Source: a virus
Length of the DNA: 22,867 nt
Reading direction: 5' to 3' (one strand)
Virus record (IMG/VR): IMGVR_UViG_3300035698_000958
Location: 1-22,867 of that record
Both the position numbers and the translations under genes were made by a program. This document shows, piece after piece, positions 5,533 through 21,677 of this stretch. The notes beneath the pieces are model-generated. The model ran no database searches. It saw nothing but the letters and a program-made list of their open reading frames with translations, and was not told the DNA's origin. Position 1 is the first letter of the stretch. Each line of letters begins with the position of its first letter.

Positions 5533-8500
5533 ATGCCAGTCGGACAATATATAGCTCCATGGAAAAGAATAAAACAAGCGCCTCCTGAGGGTCAAACTGG
5601 TAGACCACTGGCTCTTGATAAGCTATTGGAGATGGCAGGTGCTACGCCTACTGCTGCTACTGGTAGTGTTACCGAGGAAAGACCTTTAGGTGGTACTGGT
5701 GTATTAGCTGAGTTTCCTGGTATCAAGGGTGAAGTTGGGATAGAGGCGTTGCCCGAAGGTTTTAAGTACGATGAGAAAGCAGAGGAAAAGGCATCGTTAG
5801 ACCTACTTCAATCCCAGTTCGGCTTGTCGGATAAAGAAATCTCCACCATGAGAAGTGAGAGAACTGGCAAGGAAATTGTCAGACTTGTTGGTGAAGTTCT
5901 TGTCCTGAAAGGATTACCAACGGCTACGGCTGGGTTCAAGGCATTGGAAACGGCACCGCCCGTAGCAAAGTATATTGGTAGAACTGCATTAGCACCAATC
6001 GTAGGTGCGGAAAAGGTTATCAGCGCACCGTTTAAGTTAGCAAGGGCTGAGTTTGATGTTCTACTTGATGCAGGACTGGATAAGTGGATAGCTACTCAAG
6101 GGAGAAATCCCGACTTCCAATCTGCACTCGGTAAGTTCCTTGTGGGTAAACGGACACGGATGATTGAGTACGCTACTAATAATCTCAAGAGGCGTATGTC
6201 GGAAAAGACGGCTACCCCTCAAGCGGTAAAGACGGCAGTTGATGATACCATAAAACAGGTAGAGAAAGAACTGTTACCAGAGTTTACCAAGACTCGAACT
6301 GACCTCACTATCAAGGGCATTAAGGAAGGTGCATACGAACCAGCACCATCTATCCAAGCAGTTAAGGGTGTTGAGATGAGGCTTGGAAAACCTGCTGAAA
6401 TACGCAAGACACTACCGACTAGAACCGATACTGATACTCTTAATATCGTGCAACAGCAAGCGAAAAAGAAGGGTATGGATGTAGAGGCTGTACAAGGTAT
6501 ATCCGATGACGAATACTGGGTAGGTATATCACTTCCTAGTTTAACGAGCAACCCCGCATTTTCTGATTGGCTGGTAACACTGCGCAACAAAGACCCCGAA
6601 ATAGCTAATAGGGTTGAAAGGTTACTAGTAGGTAAATTTGAGTTTACAGGCGAGACATCGGTTGAACCTTTTGGGCGAAAGAGATTCATTCCCTTTAAGA
6701 ATATAGAGGATGCGCAAGACTTTATAAATGGCGACATCTCTAAAATAGCCACAGAACTCAGGTTAAAAGGGCCGTCAAGAGGGGTTGAGCCAGTACCAAA
6801 GGCAGTCAAGGGTGTTACTGCTGAGTTGAAACCTACCCCAGATGCCGAGAAGTTGTGGGGCAAAAGACAACCACTAGCAAGAAAATTAGAATCCGAACCA
6901 GATAATCCAAGTTTATTATCCGATTTGGGAGTGGTTGAAATTGAATTAGCAAAATTAGGCAAAATACCTATTGGTCAAGCAAAAGAAAGTATAAAAGCTG
7001 CTAGGTTATTTTGGGAAGAAAGATACAAGCCACCTGAAGGAAAGGGAGATTACTGGTCAGAAGATATGGAACGCAGGATAATTGCTTCAGAAAAGGCATT
7101 ATCCGAATATACTAAGCTAACCCCAGAGGTAGTACCCACACCCCCTGTAGCGGGTGTAACACCTGTTAAACCAGTAGGCGAGGTCGTTACCCCAACTGCG
7201 CCAATTATATCTCCTGTAGAGAGTGTGGCAAAACCTCCTCCTCCGCCAACTGCGCCTCCACCGGAAACAGGGATTATCACTGAGGTGCCCATATCAGATA
7301 AAGCTAGTTTTGCTAATCTTCAGGACATTCAAACGGTTATTAATTACTCTAACAAACCGGATGTCTCTAGGTGGATTGCTAATTTACCTCTAGTGAAACA
7401 GGTGATGTCAAGACTTAATCCTAGTGCTATCGCCAATACGCCAGGGGAGAAGGCTATTGTTGCCAGAGCAGTTTTAAGAGAAGAGGGTACGCAGAAAGCA
7501 CAGGGAGTAATGGCGTACCTCCATGAATTAGGAAGCCAGGAAAAGGTATTCGGTAAATTAGATGATAACGGGTTTTTAACTTCTGGTGAGCTTAAAGGGA
7601 AGTCTCTTAATGATGTCAGGACATACCCCAAGAGATATAAATTAACCACAGAACAAAAGGCATGGATAGATAGGGCGCATGAGATTGAGGCAGCAAAGTT
7701 GAAATTCATGCGTGATAACGATATTAACATTAACGAACTATCTTTTGAAGAGGGTGGTGAATACGCAGGAAGACGAGTCTATGCCAAGATGTCTTCTGAT
7801 GGGGAATTACTGGACAGTGGTTACGTTGGGGCTGGACCTGCAAGGATTGGCAAAAAGACTGCGTTTGAGAAGGGGCGTACTTTCAAGACAGTACAAGAGG
7901 CTCTGGAAGCTGGTTATAAATACTTACCGGAAGATGAGGCTTTATCTCTGAATACAAGGGCTGCTTATAACAGGGTAGCCGACAAAAAGATGTCTGAGTG
8001 GCTATTAACACAAGTACCGTGGAGGACTTCTGGGGCATCTGAGGAACTTGTTTTGGCTGCGGAGTCAGCAAAGACGAGGGTGAACAGCAGCAAACAATTA
8101 CTAGCAGCATTAAATAGGGTTGTCAGGGGAGAGAGAATACCTGATGCAACTATTACTTCAATAGCAAGAACATATCCTCAAGAAGCAGCAGAACTTAAAA
8201 GTCTTATACCAGAAATACAGGCTAATAAACCAACCGCAAGCAGAGTCCAAGCCCTTACCAAAAAGGCAAAAGCTTTGGTTAAATCAGATAAGGCAGATAG
8301 TAACGCTGCGATAAATGCAAGGGCGAGGGCGAGAGAAAGGGCTATGACACCGAAATTTGGGGAGGCTTCATTACAACATCCTGCCTTCTCAGGAAAGATA
8401 TTTACTGGGCCGGAGGCCAAACAGTTAGCGGAAACCATGCGTAATGCTTTGGAACCCAACGTAACTAAAGCATTAACAGATGTGAATAAAGTCAATGCGC

Positions 8501-10359
8501 TTGTCAGATATTTCAAATTAGCAGGAGATTTTAGCACACTTGGTATTCAGTTAATATTTCTGGCAGGGCAAAACCCAAGGATATATGGTGGTGCCGCTGC
8601 TTCTATACCCAAGATATTATTGGATAAAGAGTGGAGCGCGAAGTTCTTATCCAAACAAAAAGCTACTATTGATAGACACCCTGGATTGTTATTGTCATCT
8701 TTAGGTACTGAGTTTACAGAGGCTATGGCAAAGGGTGGGTTGTTATCGAGCAAAGTAAATGTATTTCCTAAACAGGAAGCATTGGCAAAAAAACTTGCCT
8801 TAGTGACTCCAAGAGCTATAGGTAAGTCTGCGGCTACCGTACTTGAGCCATTCCAGAGAGTATTTGAAGGTACAGTTGATTATGCCGGTATAAAAATGGC
8901 CGAAGCATTGGAACACTTAGCCAAAACTCCGGCAGAGATGGCGGAGGTAGACCAGTTTATTAACGAGTTTAGAGGACTAACATCAAGTGCAAAACTTGGG
9001 GTAGGTCCCAACTGGAGGGCGGGAGAAACCGCTACTATTCTGGCACCAAGATACAATAGAGCTATTGCGGCGCTGTTATACGATGCGTCAAAGGGAGCGG
9101 CTACCTTCGGTCAGTCTGGGTTGCGAAACAGGTTAGCGATACAAGGATTGACTAAGGGTATTGCCGCTATAGCAGCTATGACTGTTGCTATATCATTGGC
9201 ACTAGGAGAGGATGAGGATGATATCAAGAAACATTTTGACCCACTTTCCCCTAAGTTTTTTACATGGAATGTGGCAGGCCAGAATATCGGGCCAGGTTCA
9301 AAGGTTAGGAGTGTTGTCAAACTAATTGCTCAGGCAACTGATAATCCGGAAGCATTGTTACAACTAAGTATGGACAATCCTGCGTTGCGTTTCATCAGGG
9401 GAAATCTAGCCCCCGTTCCTGGCGGTGCGCTGAGTATCTTAACGGGTAAGAATTATATCGGTGATCCTGTGAGAAGTGATGTAGCCACTTTTACGAGGGA
9501 GATGATAGTCAAGAACTTCATGATGATATGGGCAGAGAATGTGATTTATGAAGGTGGTTCTATAAGCCAACGATTGATACGAGGGGCAGGTGAGTTCTTT
9601 GGTGGCAGGGCATATCCAGAGACAGAAAGCGATGAGGTTAGCAGATTAAGAGACAGGTATTCCGCACAGGAATACGGCAAAGAATGGGAAGACTTAAATA
9701 ATGAGGGTAGAGATGCTGTGCGTGATAAATACCCAAACCTTGTAGAATTGGAAAAATCAGCGAAAGAATCCTACTCCGAAAAGGGTAATGATATTGAGCG
9801 ATTCTATTTCAACGAGAAACAGAGAATAACAGACGATAGGAATAACAGTCTTGAAAAGGCAGCACAATCTTACCTTGATGGCAATATTTCTAAGTATGAT
9901 TATGATAATCAGAGGGGTTATATCAGACCATACTATTCGGGTGGGAGTGAGGTTCTTTGGTCGGTAAAGGAAAGTCTGGATGCCTACTCTGTCAAACAGA
10001 TGGAGAAATGGCTGGATGAGAATATAAAACCAGAGGATAAAGCTCTTGGTGAATACCAGCAATACAGGGGTGAGTTAATAGAAGGTGCTGACCTCCCGGT
10101 TGATTGGGATAGCATTGATAGGGAACTTGAGGATTATCTCACCAAGTATAGCACTGAAACCAAGAATTATATTTTGACGAACATGAACTCATGGGTAAAC
10201 GACTTGCCACCAGCAGCAAAACAGGTGGAATTAGATAGAACAAAAGGTATTGTAACCGGAAGTTGGTGGTGGAAATACAGGGAAAAAATGAGACCTTTAA
10301 GAACCACCACACCAAGTACGCAATCAAGTAAACGTATCGCGCCATGGAAGAAACAATAA
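5533..10359 (+). CDS. Very large multidomain virion protein (1608 aa), putative internal/ejection protein
   Basis: The largest gene in the window, starting 9 bases after the previous stop with AAGGAA just before the ATG. N-terminal part (1-525): mixed alpha/beta with helical stretches. Residues about 530-582 form a Pro/Val/Thr-rich linker including a KPPPPP run, separating the N-terminal part from a long mainly helical part (590-1500). A hydrophobic segment, IAAIAAMTVAISLAL (1210-1224), lies next to an acidic turn and could insert into a membrane. The last 250 residues are charged and aromatic. The pentapeptide IAPWK occurs near both ends (7-11 and 1602-1606). The general build resembles phage large polyvalent or ejection proteins; I see no nuclease, peptidase or lytic transglycosylase active-site motif that I would trust. 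Location between portal and scaffold fits an internal head protein. Confidence 0.6.
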   Translation: MPVGQYIAPWKRIKQAPPEGQTGRPLALDKLLEMAGATPTAATGSVTEERPLGGTGVLAEFPGIKGEVGIEALPEGFKYDEKAEEKASLDLLQSQFGLSDKEISTMRSERTGKEIVRLVGEVLVLKGLPTATAGFKALETAPPVAKYIGRTALAPIVGAEKVISAPFKLARAEFDVLLDAGLDKWIATQGRNPDFQSALGKFLVGKRTRMIEYATNNLKRRMSEKTATPQAVKTAVDDTIKQVEKELLPEFTKTRTDLTIKGIKEGAYEPAPSIQAVKGVEMRLGKPAEIRKTLPTRTDTDTLNIVQQQAKKKGMDVEAVQGISDDEYWVGISLPSLTSNPAFSDWLVTLRNKDPEIANRVERLLVGKFEFTGETSVEPFGRKRFIPFKNIEDAQDFINGDISKIATELRLKGPSRGVEPVPKAVKGVTAELKPTPDAEKLWGKRQPLARKLESEPDNPSLLSDLGVVEIELAKLGKIPIGQAKESIKAARLFWEERYKPPEGKGDYWSEDMERRIIASEKALSEYTKLTPEVVPTPPVAGVTPVKPVGEVVTPTAPIISPVESVAKPPPPPTAPPPETGIITEVPISDKASFANLQDIQTVINYSNKPDVSRWIANLPLVKQVMSRLNPSAIANTPGEKAIVARAVLREEGTQKAQGVMAYLHELGSQEKVFGKLDDNGFLTSGELKGKSLNDVRTYPKRYKLTTEQKAWIDRAHEIEAAKLKFMRDNDININELSFEEGGEYAGRRVYAKMSSDGELLDSGYVGAGPARIGKKTAFEKGRTFKTVQEALEAGYKYLPEDEALSLNTRAAYNRVADKKMSEWLLTQVPWRTSGASEELVLAAESAKTRVNSSKQLLAALNRVVRGERIPDATITSIARTYPQEAAELKSLIPEIQANKPTASRVQALTKKAKALVKSDKADSNAAINARARARERAMTPKFGEASLQHPAFSGKIFTGPEAKQLAETMRNALEPNVTKALTDVNKVNALVRYFKLAGDFSTLGIQLIFLAGQNPRIYGGAAASIPKILLDKEWSAKFLSKQKATIDRHPGLLLSSLGTEFTEAMAKGGLLSSKVNVFPKQEALAKKLALVTPRAIGKSAATVLEPFQRVFEGTVDYAGIKMAEALEHLAKTPAEMAEVDQFINEFRGLTSSAKLGVGPNWRAGETATILAPRYNRAIAALLYDASKGAATFGQSGLRNRLAIQGLTKGIAAIAAMTVAISLALGEDEDDIKKHFDPLSPKFFTWNVAGQNIGPGSKVRSVVKLIAQATDNPEALLQLSMDNPALRFIRGNLAPVPGGALSILTGKNYIGDPVRSDVATFTREMIVKNFMMIWAENVIYEGGSISQRLIRGAGEFFGGRAYPETESDEVSRLRDRYSAQEYGKEWEDLNNEGRDAVRDKYPNLVELEKSAKESYSEKGNDIERFYFNEKQRITDDRNNSLEKAAQSYLDGNISKYDYDNQRGYIRPYYSGGSEVLWSVKESLDAYSVKQMEKWLDENIKPEDKALGEYQQYRGELIEGADLPVDWDSIDRELEDYLTKYSTETKNYILTNMNSWVNDLPPAAKQVELDRTKGIVTGSWWWKYREKMRPLRTTTPSTQSSKRIAPWKKQ

Positions 10360-11115: not shown

Positions 11116-12147
11116 ATGGCTACTATACTTACTGAATACCAATTTGGTGGACTTGGGGCAGAACTGAAAAAGGAAATCGCCTTGGTTGCCGCTAATGTCT
11201 CCCCGCTACTGGGGGTTCTGCCGTTTGATGAACTGGATAACAACAATGTCTCACGGCAGAGAATGTATCTGGATGACGGGCAAATCACGGAACATGCCGT
11301 CAACTCTACCTGGGTTAAGAACAACCCGCACTGGGAGTTCAGGAACTCTCCGCTGGCGAATCTTGGGGACGATGTAACCGTTGATATGTTCGGCGCACAG
11401 GCCAGCGATACCACTTTCAACGCGCTTATGGCGGGCAACGTGGCACAGAAAACGCGCCAGATAAGCCAATCATTCGACCGTCTGGCGATTTATGCCGGTA
11501 CTACCGCCAACGCCAAGTTTTCCGCTTCCGCGATGGTAGGGTTGATGGCCCACATCGCTCGGGTGGAATCATCTACCACTGTTGACCTTGACGGCTGGCT
11601 ATACACCGGAACGGATGCCAGTGCCAACAACACTCAGGTCTTGGTTGCAGCTGCATCGGCATCAGCAACTTTGTCCCTCGGCATGATTCAGAGGCTTGTC
11701 AGTGCCGTCAAGCCTAGAGCAACTCACCTGATAATGAGCCAACTGGCGCACGATAAACTTCAGGCCTTGGCTCAGGCTGCGGGGACAAATCTGGTTGTTA
11801 CCGGAGAAAAGCTGGGTATGCCGGTGGAGATGTACGGAAGGACGCAGGTTCTCGTGAACGATGGTATCAAAGACAACTTCGTTGACCCGAGTTCCAGCGT
11901 GGCAACTATTTCTACCTACAACTACGATACCGGTACTGGCGACACCTCACCCATCTTCGCCGTTTACGTGGGAACGGATGGTTTCTGCGGTATCAACGGG
12001 CAGGGTATGATTCAGGTCGAGAACCTTGCCGGTGGTGGTGCGATGGAGAGCCTGGATGCCAGAGGAAAGCGCATCAAGTTCTACACCGGTACTGCCCTCA
12101 GGCACCGCAAAGCCGCCGCAGTTCTGGTCGGCGCAACCTATTCCTAA
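11116..12147 (+). CDS. Major capsid protein (HK97-fold type)
   Basis: Shell-forming coat protein, 343 residues. It has a GGAGG ribosome-binding site, follows the scaffold, and is the most G+C-rich and codon-tuned gene in the neighbourhood, as expected for the most expressed virion protein. The N-terminal helix with hydrophobic turns (ALVAANVSPLLGVLPF) resembles an N-arm; a long mid region contains the spine-helix-like segment LSLGMIQRLVSAVKPRATHLIMSQLAHDKL (about 190-220), commonly seen in coat proteins (beta strand ILMS-type following the helix), and the C-terminus forms beta strands ending RHRKAAAVLVGATYS. No cleavage-site evidence or N-terminal protease domain. The family assignment is from pattern memory; the role as coat is well supported by context. 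Confidence 0.85.
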   Translation: MATILTEYQFGGLGAELKKEIALVAANVSPLLGVLPFDELDNNNVSRQRMYLDDGQITEHAVNSTWVKNNPHWEFRNSPLANLGDDVTVDMFGAQASDTTFNALMAGNVAQKTRQISQSFDRLAIYAGTTANAKFSASAMVGLMAHIARVESSTTVDLDGWLYTGTDASANNTQVLVAAASASATLSLGMIQRLVSAVKPRATHLIMSQLAHDKLQALAQAAGTNLVVTGEKLGMPVEMYGRTQVLVNDGIKDNFVDPSSSVATISTYNYDTGTGDTSPIFAVYVGTDGFCGINGQGMIQVENLAGGGAMESLDARGKRIKFYTGTALRHRKAAAVLVGATYS

Positions 12148-12183: not shown

Positions 12184-13002
12184 ATGGCTACTAATTCTGT
12201 TCCATATACACAAGCGGTTTACAATAAAGGTGGCTATGTGCTACTTTTCCCCAATGTTGAGGCTCAGTCCGATTTGATGGAAGGTGTACCACCGGACCCC
12301 TTCGTGTCAACTGCTGCGCAACAATTTCCTCTAGGCACACTAGCAATACGGGGGGAAGAGAAATGGCGTTATTGTTACGCAGGTGCTTCTCAACTTGAAC
12401 TTGGTGTGCCAACGCAGATGATGGACCCGGCCAATGCAGCGTCAGAGGATAATCTTGCCGTGGGGACTGGTTCATCTATTGGTGACACTACGGTTTATGT
12501 CACCAGCACGTCTGACATCGATGAGGCACCATATTCTACGAAGAATGGGTTGAGGGGAGGTTACATTTTTTGGAATACGGGGGTAGGACAGGGGCAGTGC
12601 CGCAAGATAAAGGACAATACTGCCTTTTCTAGTACTGAAAGCGCCACCATAGAGTTATACGACCCGATTACCATTGCCCTGACCACCGCTTCAAAGTGCG
12701 GCATCATCCCCAGTATTTGGTGGGGAACTATTGCCGTAACAACGACATCTGCTTTCTGTAATGGCGTTCCGGAGATTGTCGTACCGACCACAGCCCGTTA
12801 CTACTGGTCAAAGACTCGCGGCCCTATTGCGTTAATACAAGCCTCGACCATAGCCGTGGGGACTGAGGTTGTGATCGGCACTACAGCAGCCAAGGTTGAC
12901 CCTAGGTCTGCTTATACTACTGAAATTGTCATAGGCTTCCCGCTTACCCCTGCCGTGACAACCGATGCACAGCACTTCATGTGCTTCCTGACATTAGAAT
13001 AG
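12184..13002 (+). CDS. Beta-rich capsid-associated protein (possible decoration protein)
   Basis: A 272-residue protein with AAGGAGG ahead of the ATG, directly following the capsid gene by 36 bases. It is rich in Thr, Ser, Val and Gly, with many alternating beta strands (TTVYVTSTSDIDEAP, GGYIFWNTG, then TIELYDPITIALTTAS), typical of virion beta-sandwich proteins, and has no signal peptide or membrane segment. The N-terminal third carries an aromatic Cys-containing turn (WRYCYAG). Its position immediately behind the coat gene suggests a decoration or head-stabilising protein, but a short fibre cannot be excluded. A GC-rich hairpin follows its stop. Confidence 0.6.
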   Translation: MATNSVPYTQAVYNKGGYVLLFPNVEAQSDLMEGVPPDPFVSTAAQQFPLGTLAIRGEEKWRYCYAGASQLELGVPTQMMDPANAASEDNLAVGTGSSIGDTTVYVTSTSDIDEAPYSTKNGLRGGYIFWNTGVGQGQCRKIKDNTAFSSTESATIELYDPITIALTTASKCGIIPSIWWGTIAVTTTSAFCNGVPEIVVPTTARYYWSKTRGPIALIQASTIAVGTEVVIGTTAAKVDPRSAYTTEIVIGFPLTPAVTTDAQHFMCFLTLE

Positions 13003-13011
13003 GGGTTTCAA

Positions 13012-13036
13012 AAGGGGGGGGACTACCCCCCCCCTT
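13012..13036 (+). terminator. G8/C8 hairpin after capsid module (terminator-like, no clean U-tract)
   Basis: A perfect 10-bp inverted repeat: AA plus eight G (13014-13021), loop ACTAC, then eight C plus TT (13027-13036). Right after it the sequence is CCTTAAAGGAGG rather than a run of T, so termination would be partial. It lies between the stop at 13002 and the TTG start at 13054 and could lower expression of the downstream genes relative to coat protein, or stabilise the coat mRNA 3' end. Confidence 0.6.
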
Positions 13037-13053: not shown

Positions 13054-13746
13054 TTGGAAATACCTAAAGGATACGTAGTACTCAAGTCACGCTTCCCCCT
13101 AAACCCATTATTTCAGGCAATGAAGGATGGGACAAATAGTATTGACATGGATAATTCTGAATTATTTAAGCCAAAGATGTCAGACGCAAAAGCGATATAC
13201 TACACAGACTTGGAGAAATACAATCAAAATAAAAGCCAAGTTGACCTGGCAAGAGACCCCAATCTCTTATTGTCTTATTGGGCTTTGTTTGCTCCAATGA
13301 GGGGTTATGTCATAGAAAAAATCAAGGCACCTCTACAGAAGGCTATTGAAAGTGCCAAGACACTAGCGAGTGCATCCAAAGAGATAATATCGGCTACAAA
13401 GAAGATGCCGTTGATAACCAAGAAAAACACTTGCTTTCGCAACACTCATATCCTGATAGATAAAGAGGATTTGTTTTTGAAATACCACAACAACAAGGGA
13501 AGACAGAAACTAATGGAGGCTGCCTTCCATTTGGATATTTTTGAATATGAACACGATGGCTATTATGCCTTTATTCAGGACTGGCTATTAATAGAGTTGG
13601 CGATGGAATTAGCAAAGGGTAACTGGATCCCACGTTTTAGCCAATTCCCTATTAAGAAATGCTGGAAGGGGCCTGATTTACCTGATATTGAGACAATAAG
13701 ACAAAGATTAAGAGAGGCGTTAAATGAAAACAAGGAGGGAACATAG
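13054..13746 (+). CDS. Unknown protein, paralogue of the 15379-15942 product (KYH/FHL/HDxYY family)
   Basis: A 230-residue protein starting at TTG. The N-terminal 120 residues are polar and helical. Residues 141-194 match residues 91-144 of the protein at 15379 without gaps, with 21 of 54 positions identical. Invariant positions include KYH (143-145), RQ, FHL (158-160), HD-x-YY (167-171), DW (176-177), a Glu (181), a Gly (189) and PR (193-194). The repeated conservation of His, Asp, Tyr and Trp argues for a folded, perhaps metal-binding or interaction domain rather than chance. After this, a Trp-containing tail ends in a charged helix. Lower G+C than the coat gene. I do not recognise the family; tail-fibre assembly, lysis timing or accessory virion roles are all possible. 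Confidence 0.6.
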   Translation: MEIPKGYVVLKSRFPLNPLFQAMKDGTNSIDMDNSELFKPKMSDAKAIYYTDLEKYNQNKSQVDLARDPNLLLSYWALFAPMRGYVIEKIKAPLQKAIESAKTLASASKEIISATKKMPLITKKNTCFRNTHILIDKEDLFLKYHNNKGRQKLMEAAFHLDIFEYEHDGYYAFIQDWLLIELAMELAKGNWIPRFSQFPIKKCWKGPDLPDIETIRQRLREALNENKEGT

Positions 13747-13748
13747 AT

Positions 13749-14102
13749 ATGTCGGATTTAATATCTAGTTGTTCTTGGGAAGATTTCAAAAAGGTTGTGG
13801 AGGCGGGCAAAGTCGGAGAACTCCAATCGTGTGAAATCCTACTTCCGGATCATGACTTCACGGTGATAATCTTTCACGGTGATGCGTTTGCCAGGGACTA
13901 TGCCAGAACTCAGGCGGAATACTTAGCACAGAGGACTAACTCTGTTGCAGGAAAAACACCCGCCGAATTGATGGGCGAGATAGATGGAAAACCGAAAACC
14001 GATTTACACGAGTGTCCTACCTGCGGCTTTTCTGCCAAATCAAAGTTCGGGTTGCGGTCACACATGAGGAAGCATGCAAAAGAACTAGCAGGGGTAGCTT
14101 GA
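13749..14102 (+). CDS. Small protein with C-terminal C2H2 zinc finger
   Basis: A 117-residue protein with an AAGGAGGG ribosome-binding site about 9 bases upstream. Residues 1-80 form an alpha/beta region (CSWEDFKKVVEAGKVG, then EILLPDHDFTVIIFHGDAF) with no recognised family. The C-terminus carries a textbook C2H2 finger: C89-x2-C92-x12-H105-x3-H109, with an aromatic at 94 and a Leu at 102 in the usual hydrophobic places, followed by Lys. Such fingers are rare in bacteria but known in prokaryotic proteins of the Ros/MucR type and in phage proteins. It may bind DNA or a protein partner. The stop overlaps the next ATG (TGATG). Confidence 0.72.
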   Translation: MSDLISSCSWEDFKKVVEAGKVGELQSCEILLPDHDFTVIIFHGDAFARDYARTQAEYLAQRTNSVAGKTPAELMGEIDGKPKTDLHECPTCGFSAKSKFGLRSHMRKHAKELAGVA

Positions 14103-14308
14103 TGCCACTTTACGAGCTCAGATGTAAAAACGGATGCGGGAACTTTGAAGTCAGTAGGAAATACAACGAAACCTCGGAAATCAGGTGTCCTGCGTGCAAA
14201 GGCGAAGCGGAAAGGGTCTGGTCGCCGGTCAGTTGGAGCTTCGGCTGGAAGTATGACCCCCACGCTGACATAAGCAAGAACCCTGATATGATAGTAAAGA
14301 ATATCTAA
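14102..14308 (+). CDS. FmdB-like zinc-ribbon protein (68 aa)
   Basis: The start MPLYELRC is the hallmark of the FmdB/CxxC_CxxC_SSSS regulatory zinc-ribbon family, usually MPxYEYRC. Cysteines are at 8, 12, 29 and 32 (C-x3-C and C-x2-C). The tail after residue 38 is Trp/Ser-rich (VWSPVSWSFGWKYDPHAD). I place the start at 14102, where ATG overlaps the previous stop (TGATG); a longer frame from 14012 would cover the zinc-finger gene in another frame and lose the family N-terminus. Homologues occur in many phages and bacteria, with unclear function. A good SD for the following gene lies just after its stop. Confidence 0.75.
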   Translation: MPLYELRCKNGCGNFEVSRKYNETSEIRCPACKGEAERVWSPVSWSFGWKYDPHADISKNPDMIVKNI

Positions 14309-14328
14309 TACGATTAGGAGGTAAGAAC

Positions 14329-14646
14329 ATGGCACAAACCAGAAGAGGCACACAGGTGCAGGTGCATGAAATCACAGACGGCAGAAAGGTAGTTGCCGCT
14401 GCCGCTACCGCCGAAGCATTAGCTTCGTCAAGCATCTCCATTGATTATGTAATCATAACGGCTGAAACCAACAATACTGGCGTTATCGCCGTTGGGGCTT
14501 CAACCGTAGTAGCCACAGTCTTAACCCGCAGGGGAACGCCGCTGCTGGCAGGAGAGTCAGTCGTGCTTGAAGCCGTTGACTTGGCTGACGTTTATCTGGA
14601 TGCCACAGTGAGCGGTGACGGTGCTACCTATACATATCTGTCATAG
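14329..14646 (+). CDS. Small beta-structured virion protein (105 aa)
   Basis: A 105-residue protein with a strong AGGAGGT ribosome-binding site. It has alternating strands (VIITAETNNTGVIAVGASTVVATVL, PLLAGESVVLEAVDLADVYLDA) and ends in TYTYLS, matching the build of small phage structural proteins that cap or decorate head or fibre (a GESVVLE-type strand, then a DL-x-DVYLDA strand and YxYL end). No transmembrane or signal sequence. Placed before the LamG gene, it could be a head-fibre base, decoration protein or small tail protein; the specific role is not determined by sequence. Confidence 0.6.
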   Translation: MAQTRRGTQVQVHEITDGRKVVAAAATAEALASSSISIDYVIITAETNNTGVIAVGASTVVATVLTRRGTPLLAGESVVLEAVDLADVYLDATVSGDGATYTYLS

Positions 14647-14655
14647 GAGTAATTT

Positions 14656-15378
14656 ATGCAGAAAACAATCGGCGTGACTAAGAATATGTGGAGCCGCCAA
14701 GGTAATGGCATTTACGCTCCCAATACAAGAAATTTTCCTATTAACGGGCTGGTGTTCTATGCACCTTTATGGCATCCCGAATTGAGTGGTAGTCCATTCA
14801 TATCCAAAGACCTTAATGCTCATTCTTGTACTGTTACTGGTGCTCTCTGGACTCCACAGGGCAGGACTTTTGATGGTATTGATGACGTAATTAACTGTGG
14901 AAAGGCCGATTCTCTTAATGCCCTTACTGGCAATATGACGATTGAAGCATGGATAAATCCTACCAGCCTTGGGGAGAACAATGCAGGGAGAATCCTTGAT
15001 AAAACGGGTGGAGGAACTAGGGGTTTCACGATGACCGTTACTGCTACCCAAGCAACCAGGTTTATTTTTTATGTTGGTACTGTGACAAAGATAGCAATAA
15101 GCCCAAACAATTCTGCACCTTTCGGTAGTTGGGCTCATGTTGTCGGAATCTTTAATGGCGTTAATGCTCTGATTTATGTCAATAAGGTACTAACGACTGG
15201 AACTGCAACCGCTGGGCCGATTGATGCTCATTCCGCTGATGACCTTTTAATTGGGGACAGGGCTGATTCTTCCTATTGTTTTAATGGTCTCACCGGAGAA
15301 GCTAGAATATACAATCGTGCACTGAGTGCTGTGGAAATCCTGCATAGCTATCAAGCAACCAAGTGGAGATATATATAG
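14656..15378 (+). CDS. LamG/concanavalin A-like domain virion protein
   Basis: A 240-residue protein with GGAGT upstream. Residues about 70-233 show the LamG (Laminin G/concanavalin A-like jelly-roll) pattern: RTFDGIDDVINCG (72-82), the strand TGNMTIEAWINPTSLG (about 95-110), the central ILDKTGG turn, WAHVVGIFNG followed by IYVNKVL, then DDLLIGDRADSSYCFNGLTGEARIYNRALSAVEI near the end. The FDGxDD and RIYNRALS-like motifs are characteristic of the LamG_3-type family, which binds sugars or other ligands. No signal peptide, so it reaches the surface as part of the virion; a receptor-binding or adhesion role is inferred. Confidence 0.82.
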   Translation: MQKTIGVTKNMWSRQGNGIYAPNTRNFPINGLVFYAPLWHPELSGSPFISKDLNAHSCTVTGALWTPQGRTFDGIDDVINCGKADSLNALTGNMTIEAWINPTSLGENNAGRILDKTGGGTRGFTMTVTATQATRFIFYVGTVTKIAISPNNSAPFGSWAHVVGIFNGVNALIYVNKVLTTGTATAGPIDAHSADDLLIGDRADSSYCFNGLTGEARIYNRALSAVEILHSYQATKWRYI

Positions 15379-15942
15379 ATGATATCAGGTTATAATCCAC
15401 AAAGGCGGTCTTATATAATCCCTTCAAACCCTGGGATTACTGGCGACATCGTGATGTTTCGCAGGAAGTATTTTCAGAGGGTAAAGGAAAAACTACTTAA
15501 AATTCTGCTTGGTCTGGGCAGGGGGAGTTGGATCAAAAACTTCATCGCATTAGTAGTAGCGGTTAATCTGGTACGCAAGTATCCGAAGCTACTCAGGAAA
15601 GATATAGGTAATAAGAACACCCTCGCCTTTTTAGCTATAGTTGATAAGTTTAATAAGTACCACAAAAACGGGATGAGGCAACCTTTATTTGACCAGTTCT
15701 TCCACCTTGCCTTTGCGACTACGGCACATGATAAATACTACGGGTCGCTTCTTGACTGGTGGATAGAGGAAATTATCAAGGCGATACTTGACGGTAAGAT
15801 TGAACCTCGCCCCGAAGGATGGCTCAAGCCTCAGTGGTGGAAAGAACCACCGCCGTATGGTGGAAAATATACTATCATTTACAAGATGCTTGAGCATAGG
15901 GATGAAATTAAAAAACTCTTAGGGGTAGGAGACATGCCATGA
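15379..15942 (+). CDS. Unknown protein, paralogue of the 13054-13746 product
   Basis: A 187-residue protein beginning directly after the LamG stop. The N-terminus is Pro/Arg/Ser-rich, followed by a basic helical stretch (FRRKYFQRVKEKLLKILLGLG) and a hydrophobic helix (FIALVVAVNLV), so membrane association is conceivable. Residues 91-144 (FNKYHKN ... IEPR) align ungapped with residues 141-194 of the protein encoded at 13054, with 21 identities of 54, conserving KYH, RQ, FHL, HD-x-YY, DW, Glu, Gly and PR. The C-terminal tail (RPEGWLKPQWWKE and a charged helix) also parallels the other protein (both basic/Trp then a charged helix). The stop overlaps the next ATG. Confidence 0.6.
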   Translation: MISGYNPQRRSYIIPSNPGITGDIVMFRRKYFQRVKEKLLKILLGLGRGSWIKNFIALVVAVNLVRKYPKLLRKDIGNKNTLAFLAIVDKFNKYHKNGMRQPLFDQFFHLAFATTAHDKYYGSLLDWWIEEIIKAILDGKIEPRPEGWLKPQWWKEPPPYGGKYTIIYKMLEHRDEIKKLLGVGDMP

Positions 15943-16748
15943 GTTTATATAGCAATACACTAGCAAGCGTGAGACAGTACCTTTCATCAACGGTAGGCGA
16001 CCTTATTTTGAGGACGTTTGATTCAGGGGATACCAACCACGCCGTTGATACCATGCTGACAAAGGGTGATGATTATTACAATGAGCATCATTACAGATGC
16101 TATATCTATGCAGGGACTAACATAGGTGAAGAGAGAGAGGTAAGCGATTGGGTTAATTCCACTAATCAACTAACCTTTACCCCAGGTTTTACTGATTCTG
16201 TAGATACTACTACGGATTATGAGCTTCACTTTATCTTCACCGAGGATGAATACCGCAGGGCAATTAACATGGCGATTGAAAGTATTGCCGGCAAGTATCT
16301 GGTTTACCTGAAAGATGAGACGACAATAACGCTGGTAGCCGATACTTATGAATATGAACTACCTTTATCTTTCCTGTACCTCTACAGCGTGATTACAGAA
16401 GATTCGGTTGATACCGGTGTGTATAACGAAGAGGATGGGATTGACCCGAGGGACTGGGATGTTATCAAAGCGTACCCGCCGAAGCTGAAACTCCATGAGG
16501 ATAGATATTCCATAACCGCAGGGAGAGATTTACGGCTTGAGGGGCAAGGAACACAAGCGAAGGTAACTTCTGATACTGATGTTATCTACATTCCTACTGA
16601 CTGGCTGGTTCAGAAAGCGATTACTTTCCTTCCCAAGAATAAAATTCAGAGCAATAAGCTGGATGCTACTTACAGTCAGGCTCTTGTTTTATCAGCTAAG
16701 GAACCGAGGGCATGGCCTGACCCAAAGGCAAGGAGGATAGTGGAATGA
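15939..16748 (+). CDS. Head-tail adaptor-like protein (putative)
   Basis: A 269-residue protein, with start overlapping the preceding stop (ATGA) and preceded by AGGAGACA. It mixes beta strands (residues 60-90: RCYIYAGTNIGEEREV, LTFTPGF) with a helical segment that begins FTEDEYRRAINMAIESIAGKYL (about 103-124), a layout commonly found in phage adaptor/connector proteins (N-terminal strands, then helix bundle with an RxAIN-like start), and ends in a Lys/Arg/Pro-rich helix. In a podovirus-like layout it would sit between portal and nozzle. The family signature is weak, so other minor virion roles remain possible. The stop overlaps the next gene (ATGA). Confidence 0.5.
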   Translation: MSLYSNTLASVRQYLSSTVGDLILRTFDSGDTNHAVDTMLTKGDDYYNEHHYRCYIYAGTNIGEEREVSDWVNSTNQLTFTPGFTDSVDTTTDYELHFIFTEDEYRRAINMAIESIAGKYLVYLKDETTITLVADTYEYELPLSFLYLYSVITEDSVDTGVYNEEDGIDPRDWDVIKAYPPKLKLHEDRYSITAGRDLRLEGQGTQAKVTSDTDVIYIPTDWLVQKAITFLPKNKIQSNKLDATYSQALVLSAKEPRAWPDPKARRIVE

Positions 16749-19200: not shown

Positions 19201-21342
19201 ATGCGTCAAATATTACTAAACGGAGTCCATTACCCGATACATTCTGATATACTCAGCCGAAGAATCAATCCGTGGAAAGCGAAACTCGGTGGGGGAAGTC
19301 TTACTTATAGCGACTTCAGCCAAGCAGAACTTGAGGAGTATTATGACTTCCGTAACGGCATCGGCAAGAAAAGAGGCGTTGGGTCTGATGCTCGGCTGGA
19401 TTGGTCTGAGGGTATTGACTTCACCAGCGAGGGACAGGCGGTTCTCGGCTCACTGGTAACGACAGCAGGGAATTTTGGCGTAGCCCCTGTAAAGATTATT
19501 GACTTTGAGAGTGGGACTTACGCTATCGGGAATAGCAAAATCTCCAAGTGGAACGCTGCCACTCCAGCGTGGGACTCTAAAGACACAAGTTTAGCCAGTC
19601 CGATAGATGCTATTGTCATTACCGATGATACCGATTCCTACCTGATAGTGTCCTCCGCTACCGCAGCCGTATATACTACTGACGGGGAAACATGGATTGC
19701 GCTGACTAACTGGGTAACTGGTGACAGCACTAATGACCTTTCGACTGCATGGACAGATGATGACAACGTGCTTGTTGACGCAGGTTACGCATTAGACGAT
19801 GTAGGCGCAAACACATATTCTGGACAACTTGAGATAATTTTAACAACCCCTATCTACACTGATACTGTGAGGATTGTCGTTGCTAGTGCTGCTGGTGGGA
19901 CACAGACAGCAGACGTTGACTTCTATTATGATGGCGCATATCATGGTGTCTATGAGGCCGTGATTGCACAAGGGGTAGGGGTAACTATTACACATACCAG
20001 TCAGGAACTTGTTGAAAAAATAAAGATTCGTCTAAAGGCTACTAATGCGGGAGAAATGAGGATAAGCCAGGTAAACTTCCAAGGGCAGGCGTTAGGATAT
20101 CTGGCTGACTTTGAAAACAGGCTTTACTGTATGAAAACTGACGGTAAAATTATCCTCTACTCTACGGCAAAAGATATTGATGCTATCACTGGGGCTTTCT
20201 CCCTGACTGGTAACTATGGGACAGTCCATGATTTCTTTGAAGGAAAGTTACTGTCCGATGGTACACCCACCCTCTACTTCTGTGGGACACAAGGGTTATA
20301 CAGCCTTGATACCACCAATGAGATAGCTTATAAACAAGAGGTAGCTTACCCTCCTGTAACCAATGCTGGTAACGTGGGGAAATACTGGAACGCTAACGTA
20401 TGGTTATCTACCGGCTACGGTATCTTAAAAGTAGCTCCCTCTGTGGCGACTTACGTGGGTCCTGACTTGGATGACGGCCTACCATCCACCTACCAAGGAA
20501 AGGTCTATGACTTCGCTACCGTTAATAACTGGCTGGTGTTTTGTGTTAACGGAGGGACTACCGATAAGAGTTCTATCCTGAAGCGTAACTCTACTTTGGG
20601 AGGGAATCTACAAGTCTACACTACGGCTTCAACAAACAAACCGATAGCCTGTATGCATCACTCACCTTCATCACTCTATACCAACGGGCGGCTTTGGTTC
20701 GGTGAAGGGACTGACGTTAAGTACATGATGTTTCCCGATACGACTTCCAACGTCAAGCAGATTGCTACCTATACCTATGTTAATGATTCGGGCTATGGGA
20801 AACTGCCTATCTTCCGTAAGTTAGCAGCTATCCCCAAGACAGCTCTCGGCGTGGCTGCTATTACCAAGAGTTGTAGTGCCACCGATTACATCCAGCTTTA
20901 CTACGGACTTAATGGTGCGGCACCAACGACTTCAATGGGGACGTTCATTACATCTCCCAAACCTACCGCACTAACATTCAGCAGCGGATTAGGTACTGCT
21001 TTCTATACCATTCAGTTTGCTATTAAGTTAATACAAGGTGCTACTGATACCAACAGTCCTGAACTTGAAAGCCTGATGTTCTACTATATCCCGACACCAG
21101 GTACTATTCGGGCATGGCAATTCAGGATACAGTGTACGGATGAGAACTCCGCCGAAACCATCGCGGCTTTAGAGGGTATCCGCGATACGAATACCCTTGT
21201 GGCGTTTTACCCTTCAGGTGACGAAAACAAAACATCTTATAGCGTAAAACTAACACAATTAAGCGAAAGAATAATGTACGAAGAACAAGGTGCTGCAGAA
21301 GGTTATCTTGATATTGTCTTGGAAGAGGTATTCAACGGATGA
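19201..21342 (+). CDS. Beta-propeller-like tail protein (putative nozzle/stabilisation)
   Basis: A 713-residue protein with GGGAGAAATTAA before the ATG. After a short N-terminal segment rich in aromatic and Arg/Lys residues (LSRRINPWKAKLGGG), long series of beta strands with recurring W/Y and small turns (IGNSKISKWN, AAVYTTDGETW, NRLYCMKTDGKIILYS, GTQGLYSLDT, NVWLSTGYGILKV, NRLWFGEGTDVKYMMF-type) read as propeller blades. Residues about 174-294 interrupt the blades with an inserted sandwich-like segment (VRIVVASAAGG, VDFYYDGAYHGVYEAV, KIRLKATNAGEMRISQVNF). In short-tailed phages such proteins form the nozzle; the family is not proven by sequence alone. It ends in ATGA overlap with the nuclease gene. 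Confidence 0.5.
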   Translation: MRQILLNGVHYPIHSDILSRRINPWKAKLGGGSLTYSDFSQAELEEYYDFRNGIGKKRGVGSDARLDWSEGIDFTSEGQAVLGSLVTTAGNFGVAPVKIIDFESGTYAIGNSKISKWNAATPAWDSKDTSLASPIDAIVITDDTDSYLIVSSATAAVYTTDGETWIALTNWVTGDSTNDLSTAWTDDDNVLVDAGYALDDVGANTYSGQLEIILTTPIYTDTVRIVVASAAGGTQTADVDFYYDGAYHGVYEAVIAQGVGVTITHTSQELVEKIKIRLKATNAGEMRISQVNFQGQALGYLADFENRLYCMKTDGKIILYSTAKDIDAITGAFSLTGNYGTVHDFFEGKLLSDGTPTLYFCGTQGLYSLDTTNEIAYKQEVAYPPVTNAGNVGKYWNANVWLSTGYGILKVAPSVATYVGPDLDDGLPSTYQGKVYDFATVNNWLVFCVNGGTTDKSSILKRNSTLGGNLQVYTTASTNKPIACMHHSPSSLYTNGRLWFGEGTDVKYMMFPDTTSNVKQIATYTYVNDSGYGKLPIFRKLAAIPKTALGVAAITKSCSATDYIQLYYGLNGAAPTTSMGTFITSPKPTALTFSSGLGTAFYTIQFAIKLIQGATDTNSPELESLMFYYIPTPGTIRAWQFRIQCTDENSAETIAALEGIRDTNTLVAFYPSGDENKTSYSVKLTQLSERIMYEEQGAAEGYLDIVLEEVFNG

Positions 21343-21677
21343 ACGTACAGAACATAAGCGACATAGAGAAAATAGTCTATGATTGGTTGATTGCCCGTAA
21401 GGTTGAGTTTACTTTCCAGAGTTCAATGCTTGGTGGTAGATACGAGATGGGCGGGTCGGTCGCTGACTTCCGCTTAGATGAGTCAAGAATAATCCTCAGG
21501 GTTCACGGAGATTACTGGCACAGACAGATAGCCAAGCAAGCTACCGATAGTGTCCAGAAAGAACTACTTGAAAGTGACGGCTGGACGGTGGTTGATGTCT
21601 ACGGGTCTGACCTTGAGACACCTGAAGAGGTGAACAGGACTATGGAGAAGGCTTTACTAGGACAGGAGGTAATATGA
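21339..21677 (+). CDS. Vsr/DUF559-like nuclease-fold protein
   Basis: A 112-residue protein. The pattern E-x3-Y-x2-L at 10-17 (IEKIVYDWLIARKVEFTFQ), the Gly-rich GGRYEMGGSVADF (about 32-44; candidate active-site Asp), RIILRVHGDYWH (50-61), then D...L-x4-GW-V-x-V (about 69-88) is the architecture of the Vsr/DUF559 branch of PD-(D/E)xK-like proteins: VHGDYWH is very close to the Vsr core motif. Length fits. Possible roles include DNA repair, a homing-type nuclease or late DNA processing. It starts ATGA with the tail gene and overlaps the next gene, so it is part of the late operon, an unusual place. Confidence 0.7.
   Translation: MNVQNISDIEKIVYDWLIARKVEFTFQSSMLGGRYEMGGSVADFRLDESRIILRVHGDYWHRQIAKQATDSVQKELLESDGWTVVDVYGSDLETPEEVNRTMEKALLGQEVI

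Follow-up and report, generated by a model that had tools for sequence, protein, structure and literature searches.

Diverged paralogues of a previously undescribed late protein family, as judged from database searches, between the capsid and adaptor genes of uncultivated viruses

Genes at the locus

The stretch of DNA analysed here at its full length, termed the window, is a virus record of 22.9 kb (IMGVR_UViG_3300035698_000958). Its genes follow each other in the order terminase (phrog_2), portal-like protein, a protein of 1608 aa, scaffold-like protein, major capsid protein, decoration-like protein and P0001; the second half of the order comprises the C2H2-finger protein, Zn-ribbon protein, a small protein, the laminin-G-like (LamG) protein, P0002, an SU10-like adaptor and further tail-like genes. 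The portal-like call is based on position and size, the scaffold-like call on position and composition. The features around the two genes of interest, P0001 and P0002, are the following:

11116..12147, + strand: major capsid protein (phrog_212, E 4e-22)
12184..13002, + strand: decoration-like protein, named from its position and appearance; no family match
13054..13746, + strand: P0001, subfamily I, 230 aa, TTG start, in slot A directly 3' of the decoration-like gene
13267..13677, + strand: family domain in P0001, about residues 72-208 (profile alignments, AlphaFold helices)
13549..13566, + strand: EHDGYY motif of P0001, where two helices meet (family alignment and helix boundary of the model)
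13749-14102, between P0001 and P0002: C2H2-finger gene (zinc finger, E 3e-4)
about 14102-14308, between P0001 and P0002: Zn-ribbon gene
14329-14646, between P0001 and P0002: small-protein gene
14656..15378, + strand: laminin-G/concanavalin-like virion protein (PF13385, E 6e-26; phrog_8510)
15379..15942, + strand: P0002, subfamily II, 187 aa, ATG start
15409..15852, + strand: family domain in P0002, about residues 11-158 (profile alignments, model)
15850..15927, + strand: C-terminal motif of subfamily II (PPYGGKYTIIYKMLEHRDEIKKLLG; alignment, identity by region)
15939..16748, + strand: probable head-tail adaptor (PF24175 SU10_adaptor, E 1e-4, under the gathering score)

Both open reading frames were found where the sequence-only reading had placed them (13054-13746 and 15379-15942); the number of genes lying between them has to be corrected from three to four (C2H2-finger, Zn-ribbon, 14329-14646 and LamG). 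An AGGAGG lies 5 nt 5' of the TTG start of P0001. P0002 starts 1 nt past the LamG stop (gap of 0 nt), and its end overlaps the adaptor start by 4 nt; the same 4-nt overlap of the adaptor start by a family copy is present in the relative record G036. Phage SU10 is short-tailed (PMC9509320); on the strength of the one weak adaptor match, the window virus may be short-tailed too.

Several further features of the region were recorded. A G-run/C-run hairpin (13014-13033) separates the decoration-like gene from the subfamily I copy, and a hairpin before the family gene was seen in four records (window, L092, L090 and L068; stem of 8-11 pairs): its z-value was -2.8 to -3.6 in L090, L068 and L092 and only -0.2 in the window as a result of the homopolymer runs; the hairpin may limit expression past the capsid and decoration genes. 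The N-terminal part of the C2H2-finger protein is conserved at the place 3' of the family gene in G007, L030, L031, L068, L069 and L092, and its finger part also matches the Methanosarcina virus MetMV. The window terminase has 47 relatives in IMG/VR, and a stretch of MetMV is 57% identical to it; the MetMV terminase (MK170447.1 = L003, 7982-9730) matches in two pieces about 1.07 kb apart, near the Walker A region, and several of the IMG/VR terminase relatives gave partial matches only, for which inteins or other insertions are the likely cause. The 1608-aa protein (5533-10359) has no family match above threshold; its relatives in other records (about 1000-2500 aa) have a portal-like gene on one side and a scaffold-like gene on the other, and it is perhaps an internal ejection protein. 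At 21339-21677, directly 3' of the large tail-like gene, a gene with a weak phage endonuclease match (phrog_13076, E 1e-4) has a relative at the equivalent place in L092, and the C-terminal part of the minus-strand product of 22458-22865 matches the metallo-phosphoesterase family phrog_221 (E 3e-6).

Homology of the two proteins and anatomy of the family domain

The ungapped block of 54 residues reported earlier (P0001 141-194 versus P0002 91-144; 21/54 identical) was recovered as part of a longer similarity: BLASTP aligned 96 residues without gaps (112-207 versus 62-157; 30 identical) at E 3e-13, and the second copy was found at E 1e-12 in a genome search of the window alone. The Smith-Waterman score of 132 is far above chance, as the scores of 5000 shuffles averaged 31.5 and did not exceed 64. 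By these comparisons P0001 and P0002 are truly homologous, as diverged paralogues; at the DNA level the block is 48% identical (78/162), which indicates an old duplication.

Neither single-sequence scans nor a two-sequence profile revealed direct IMG/VR relatives of P0001 or P0002; family members were reached only via the relatives of the terminase. A two-row alignment run against their whole records identified one record, G007, carrying both paralogues; the resulting four-row profile then reached further IMG/VR records, and later rounds brought the set to 16 genes from 11 distinct virus records, one of which is the window (distinct records were counted, G035 being a near-duplicate of G036). 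All copies come from uncultivated viruses, many of the relative records are fragments whose genes were called by a simple script, and the collection scans rely on short exact patterns, by which distant or more diverged members will be missed. The family profile detected the window proteins at E 5e-50 and 4e-43, values to be read with the fact that both were in the profile; independent support for a shared family comes from the BLASTP match given above. In both window proteins the domain aligned throughout, and both genes lie on the late strand between capsid and adaptor. The central proposal of the sequence-only reading, that the two proteins are diverged paralogues from an unrecognised family and are encoded in a late (head-to-tail) operon, is in consequence borne out, and the family recurs in the late regions of other viruses.

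No significant match of the family was obtained in Pfam, PHROGs or NCBIfam, nor in the PDB by sequence and profile; tblastn retrieved nothing at E up to 1 from INPHARED phages (queries P0001, P0002 and the G034 and G037 members) or from plasmids (G036 member), and two scans of genome contigs yielded no family member. As far as these collections and BFVD can tell, the family is previously undescribed. The nearest approaches were all below significance: phrog_29388, of unknown function, aligned with 24 residues of P0002 (E 0.38) and with no other member. The FCD domain of GntR/FadR regulators gave a weak helical alignment at the FRA..RI..EYEHDPYY stretch (E 0.4), with PdhR chains as the top PDB sequence matches; the alignment is not significant, the family has neither a DNA-binding domain nor the metal-binding His set of FCD, and membership in this FadR-type group was rejected on the E-value of 0.4 and the missing Pfam match.

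According to the profile alignments, the shared domain comprises about 125-135 residues. It starts with an N-terminal helix (R.YVI.KVKAPL.KAI) that is followed by a linker of highly variable length and by P.PT..N; the middle part consists of a helix LID..D.F..YE.N..GR..LF and a helix ending in EYEHDPYY; a helix R.DW.LEE and a tail W.PR....CWKE form the end. R.YVI.KVKAPL.KAI, D.F..YE.N..R..LF, E.EHD.YY and W.PR...CWKE define the family. The earlier picture of a 54-residue module fused to different N-termini does not hold, since the domain takes in part of these N-termini: P0001 and most relatives possess the N-terminal helix, of which P0002 has a degenerate form; P0002 deviates at this helix and also lacks the Glu preceding the His-Asp pair. 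The C-terminal motif PPYGGKYTIIYKMLEHRDEIKKLLG of P0002 is found again in the slot A copies of G007 and G037 and, in weaker form, in that of G039, with the subfamily II consensus PPYGG..TIIYK...EHRDEIK..LG. An internal repeat of the domain occurs in two family genes (G038, G039); repeated-domain proteins were noted at L068:6574-7287 and L069:11743-12474, and the second L068 repeat is devoid of the His-Asp pair. P0002 and the G033 and G041 members carry a hydrophobic insert whose Kyte-Doolittle mean, taken over 19 residues, is as high as 1.4-1.8. A membrane anchor for the family was rejected, as most of the other members are lower on this scale and show no convincing membrane segment.

In the alignment of 15 domains, Phe141, His167 and Trp204 (P0001 numbering) are present in 15/15 rows, and Arg83, Lys91, Pro93, Leu94, Pro119, Leu134, Glu166, Asp168, Tyr171 and Trp191 in 14/15. 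The 21 identities of the block comprise 15 that equal the majority residue of the family and six that do not (Lys3, His5, Gln11, Phe18, His19, Leu20). Invariance had been predicted for His5, His19, His27 and Asp28 of the block; this proved correct for His27 (15/15) and nearly so for Asp28 (14/15, the same as Tyr31), and failed for His5 and His19, which like Gln11 are confined to the two window proteins (2/15 rows each). The Asp of the His-Asp pair is replaced by Ser in one intact copy (slot B of G036), and the 15-row alignment contains no second invariant His, Asp or Cys able to complete a metal site. The suggestion that the preserved His, Asp, Tyr and Trp residues form such a site is therefore unsupported.

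The AlphaFold models of the two window proteins reached a mean pLDDT of 72 and 76, the core blocks mostly 80-93. Helices were predicted for residues 73-78, 82-100, 104-115, 129-144, 148-167 and 169-187 of P0001 and for residues 79-94, 101-117 and 119-137 of P0002. The last three helices of P0001 and those of P0002 lie in the same register with an offset of 50, as expected for paralogues, an agreement that is partly built in because both models derive from the same 11-sequence alignment. The family proteins are predicted to be mostly helical. No known fold was recognised: the best Foldseek matches against PDB and BFVD had E of about 0.5-1.3, which is not meaningful, and VIA-align returned Z 3.9 at best. 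HD-domain phosphohydrolases are all-helical and carry the signature H...HD...D; the family resembles them in its helical nature and conserved His-Asp pair, but differs in having one invariant His, in the Asp-to-Ser substitution of G036 slot B and in lacking a Pfam match. The fold check gave no significant Foldseek match and no VIA-align row above Z 4.

Genomic position and exchange of places between the subfamilies

In every record the copies are situated on the late strand, 3' of the known or presumed major-capsid gene and 5' of the adaptor where one was recognised; the capsid genes of these records are not all recognisably related. A copy immediately follows the decoration-like gene in the window, G007, G033, G037-G040 and G042 (in the relatives, too, the label comes from position and appearance, no family match having been obtained), and the decoration-like gene is kept immediately 5' of the family gene in G007, G037, G038, G039 and G042. 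In the four multi-copy records (window, G007, G039, G036) one copy abuts the LamG gene, upstream with short overlaps in G007, G039 and G036, downstream with a 0-nt gap in the window. In the single-copy records with a LamG gene (G033, G037, G041) the family copy is not adjacent to it, and a terminase relative (L016, G010) possesses a LamG gene but no family copy. The records L030 and L031 have a capsid gene about 42% identical to that of the window and have kept relatives of the C2H2-finger and Zn-ribbon genes; no family copy was found within the fetched region of either, and the gene is thus dispensable for some relatives. LAGLIDADG- or HNH-like homing endonuclease reading frames, recognised by eye, occur among late genes at L069:13286-13711, L066:3640-3852 and L092:10601-10975.

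The tree of 15 domains separated two subfamilies with a support of 100/98, and the split was also recovered without the block (87/95); most inner branches inside each subfamily are weakly supported. The members are:

Subfamily I: P0001, G007 slot B, the three G036 copies, G033, G034, G038, G040, G042
Subfamily II: P0002, the slot A copies of G007, G037 and G039, the G041 copy

Three records, the window, G007 and G039, contain one copy of each subfamily (a separate analysis grouped the second G039 copy, which has the internal repeat, with the slot B copy of G007). In G007 and G039 the copy behind the decoration gene belongs to subfamily II and the copy before LamG to subfamily I; in the window it is the subfamily I copy that comes after the decoration gene, and the subfamily II copy sits between LamG and the adaptor. 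The joint retention of both subfamilies and their exchanged places in the window argue that the duplication is older than the divergence of these viruses and that the copies have swapped places. Across P0001 residues 141-168, P0002 resembles P0001 more than it does the other members of subfamily II (46% match, versus 36% for the next best relative). Gene conversion between the window copies is not supported by the residues unique to the pair in the block, which number three, no more than for other pairs. Taken as a whole, the family is old, duplicated, late, mostly helical by prediction, position-bound and dispensable.

Possible roles of the family

Any reading has to accommodate a family whose two subfamilies demonstrably hold a fixed late position, vary in copy number and move between slots. 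Tentatively, and fully aware that it may well prove wrong, we infer a soluble accessory or adaptor protein for particle assembly, acting most likely with virion surface components or the neck. The conserved helical core would be the scaffold common to all copies; the partner would be determined by the variable N-terminal segment and by the C-terminal tail specific to each subfamily, and would most likely be an adjacently encoded capsid-surface protein (decoration-like or LamG) or the neck; and extra copies would have arisen along with extra surface proteins. The late position, the adjacency to decoration-like and LamG genes, the overlap with the adaptor, the co-retention of the subfamilies, the helical models and the scarcity of membrane segments speak for this role; against it stand the non-adjacency to LamG in G033, G037 and G041, the terminase relative that has a LamG gene and no family copy (L016, G010), the absence of the family from L030 and L031 and the lack of a recognised fold. 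As evidence for the partner, the LamG adjacency is only suggestive, because extra copies must land somewhere and about three independent cases are at hand. A more specific version, according to which the proteins are assembly partners of capsid-surface proteins, the two old subfamilies serving different surface proteins, with places exchanged and the core partially exchanged in the window lineage (P0001 141-168), is doubtful in its entirety.

Tail-fibre assembly chaperones (Caudo_TAP, PF02413 type) are small, adjoin the genes of surface proteins, occur in several diverged copies and are patchy or mobile together with their client. The family would be alike in small size, adjacency to surface genes, diverged copies and patchiness, but unlike in being mostly helical by prediction and in adjoining capsid-decoration and LamG genes instead of tail fibres; no match to a chaperone of this type was found in Pfam (E up to 1) or PHROGs. 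By analogy, a family protein might help the adjacent surface protein to fold or assemble as a chaperone would, a likeness suggested by the adjacency of the genes alone.

Two other readings are close rivals of the assembly role. The proteins could be minor structural components of head or neck that belong to the virion itself instead of helping its assembly, for instance a plug or head-vertex protein, with the paralogues at different sites: the fixed place between capsid and adaptor genes fits such a component, as does the overlap of a copy with the adaptor start in the window and in G036. We nevertheless hold it to be rather unlikely, as L030 and L031 do without it, no fold match to known neck proteins was returned, and it would be odd for an essential neck piece to accompany capsid genes without recognisable relationship to each other. 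Unlikely as well is a moron-like accessory gene within the late operon whose product is directed at the host or at competing viruses (anti-defence, superinfection, host takeover); patchy presence, variable copy number and shifts between slots would be typical of it, but there is no break in promoter, strand or composition, the overlaps with structural genes are tight, and the slot after the decoration gene is conserved across divergent records. An enzyme or nuclease dependent on metal, to which the metal site of the sequence-only reading would point, is quite improbable, and this holds also for a free-standing mobile nuclease as an account of the moving copies: the invariant His167 with Asp168 in 14/15 rows, the movement of copies between gene junctions and the homing-endonuclease-like frames seen by eye in the same region of relatives are outweighed by a single invariant His whose Asp is replaced in one intact copy, by the missing conservation of His5 and His19 and of any second His, Asp or Cys, and by the lack of a nuclease or hydrolase match in Pfam or NCBIfam. 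The free-standing homing endonuclease as such was rejected, no HNH, GIY-YIG or LAGLIDADG profile match and no conserved catalytic set having been detected.

The capsid-to-neck region of tailed viruses is usually thought to be well understood; to this region the present analysis contributes a family that is clearly defined, divides into two subfamilies and keeps a fixed genomic position. If its members are indeed assembly partners of surface proteins, the family would be a marker for the swapping of surface proteins in uncultivated viruses; if not, it is a further phage protein family of unknown function, now with a set of conserved residues open to testing (Arg83, Phe141, His167, Asp168, Tyr171 and Trp204 in P0001 numbering).
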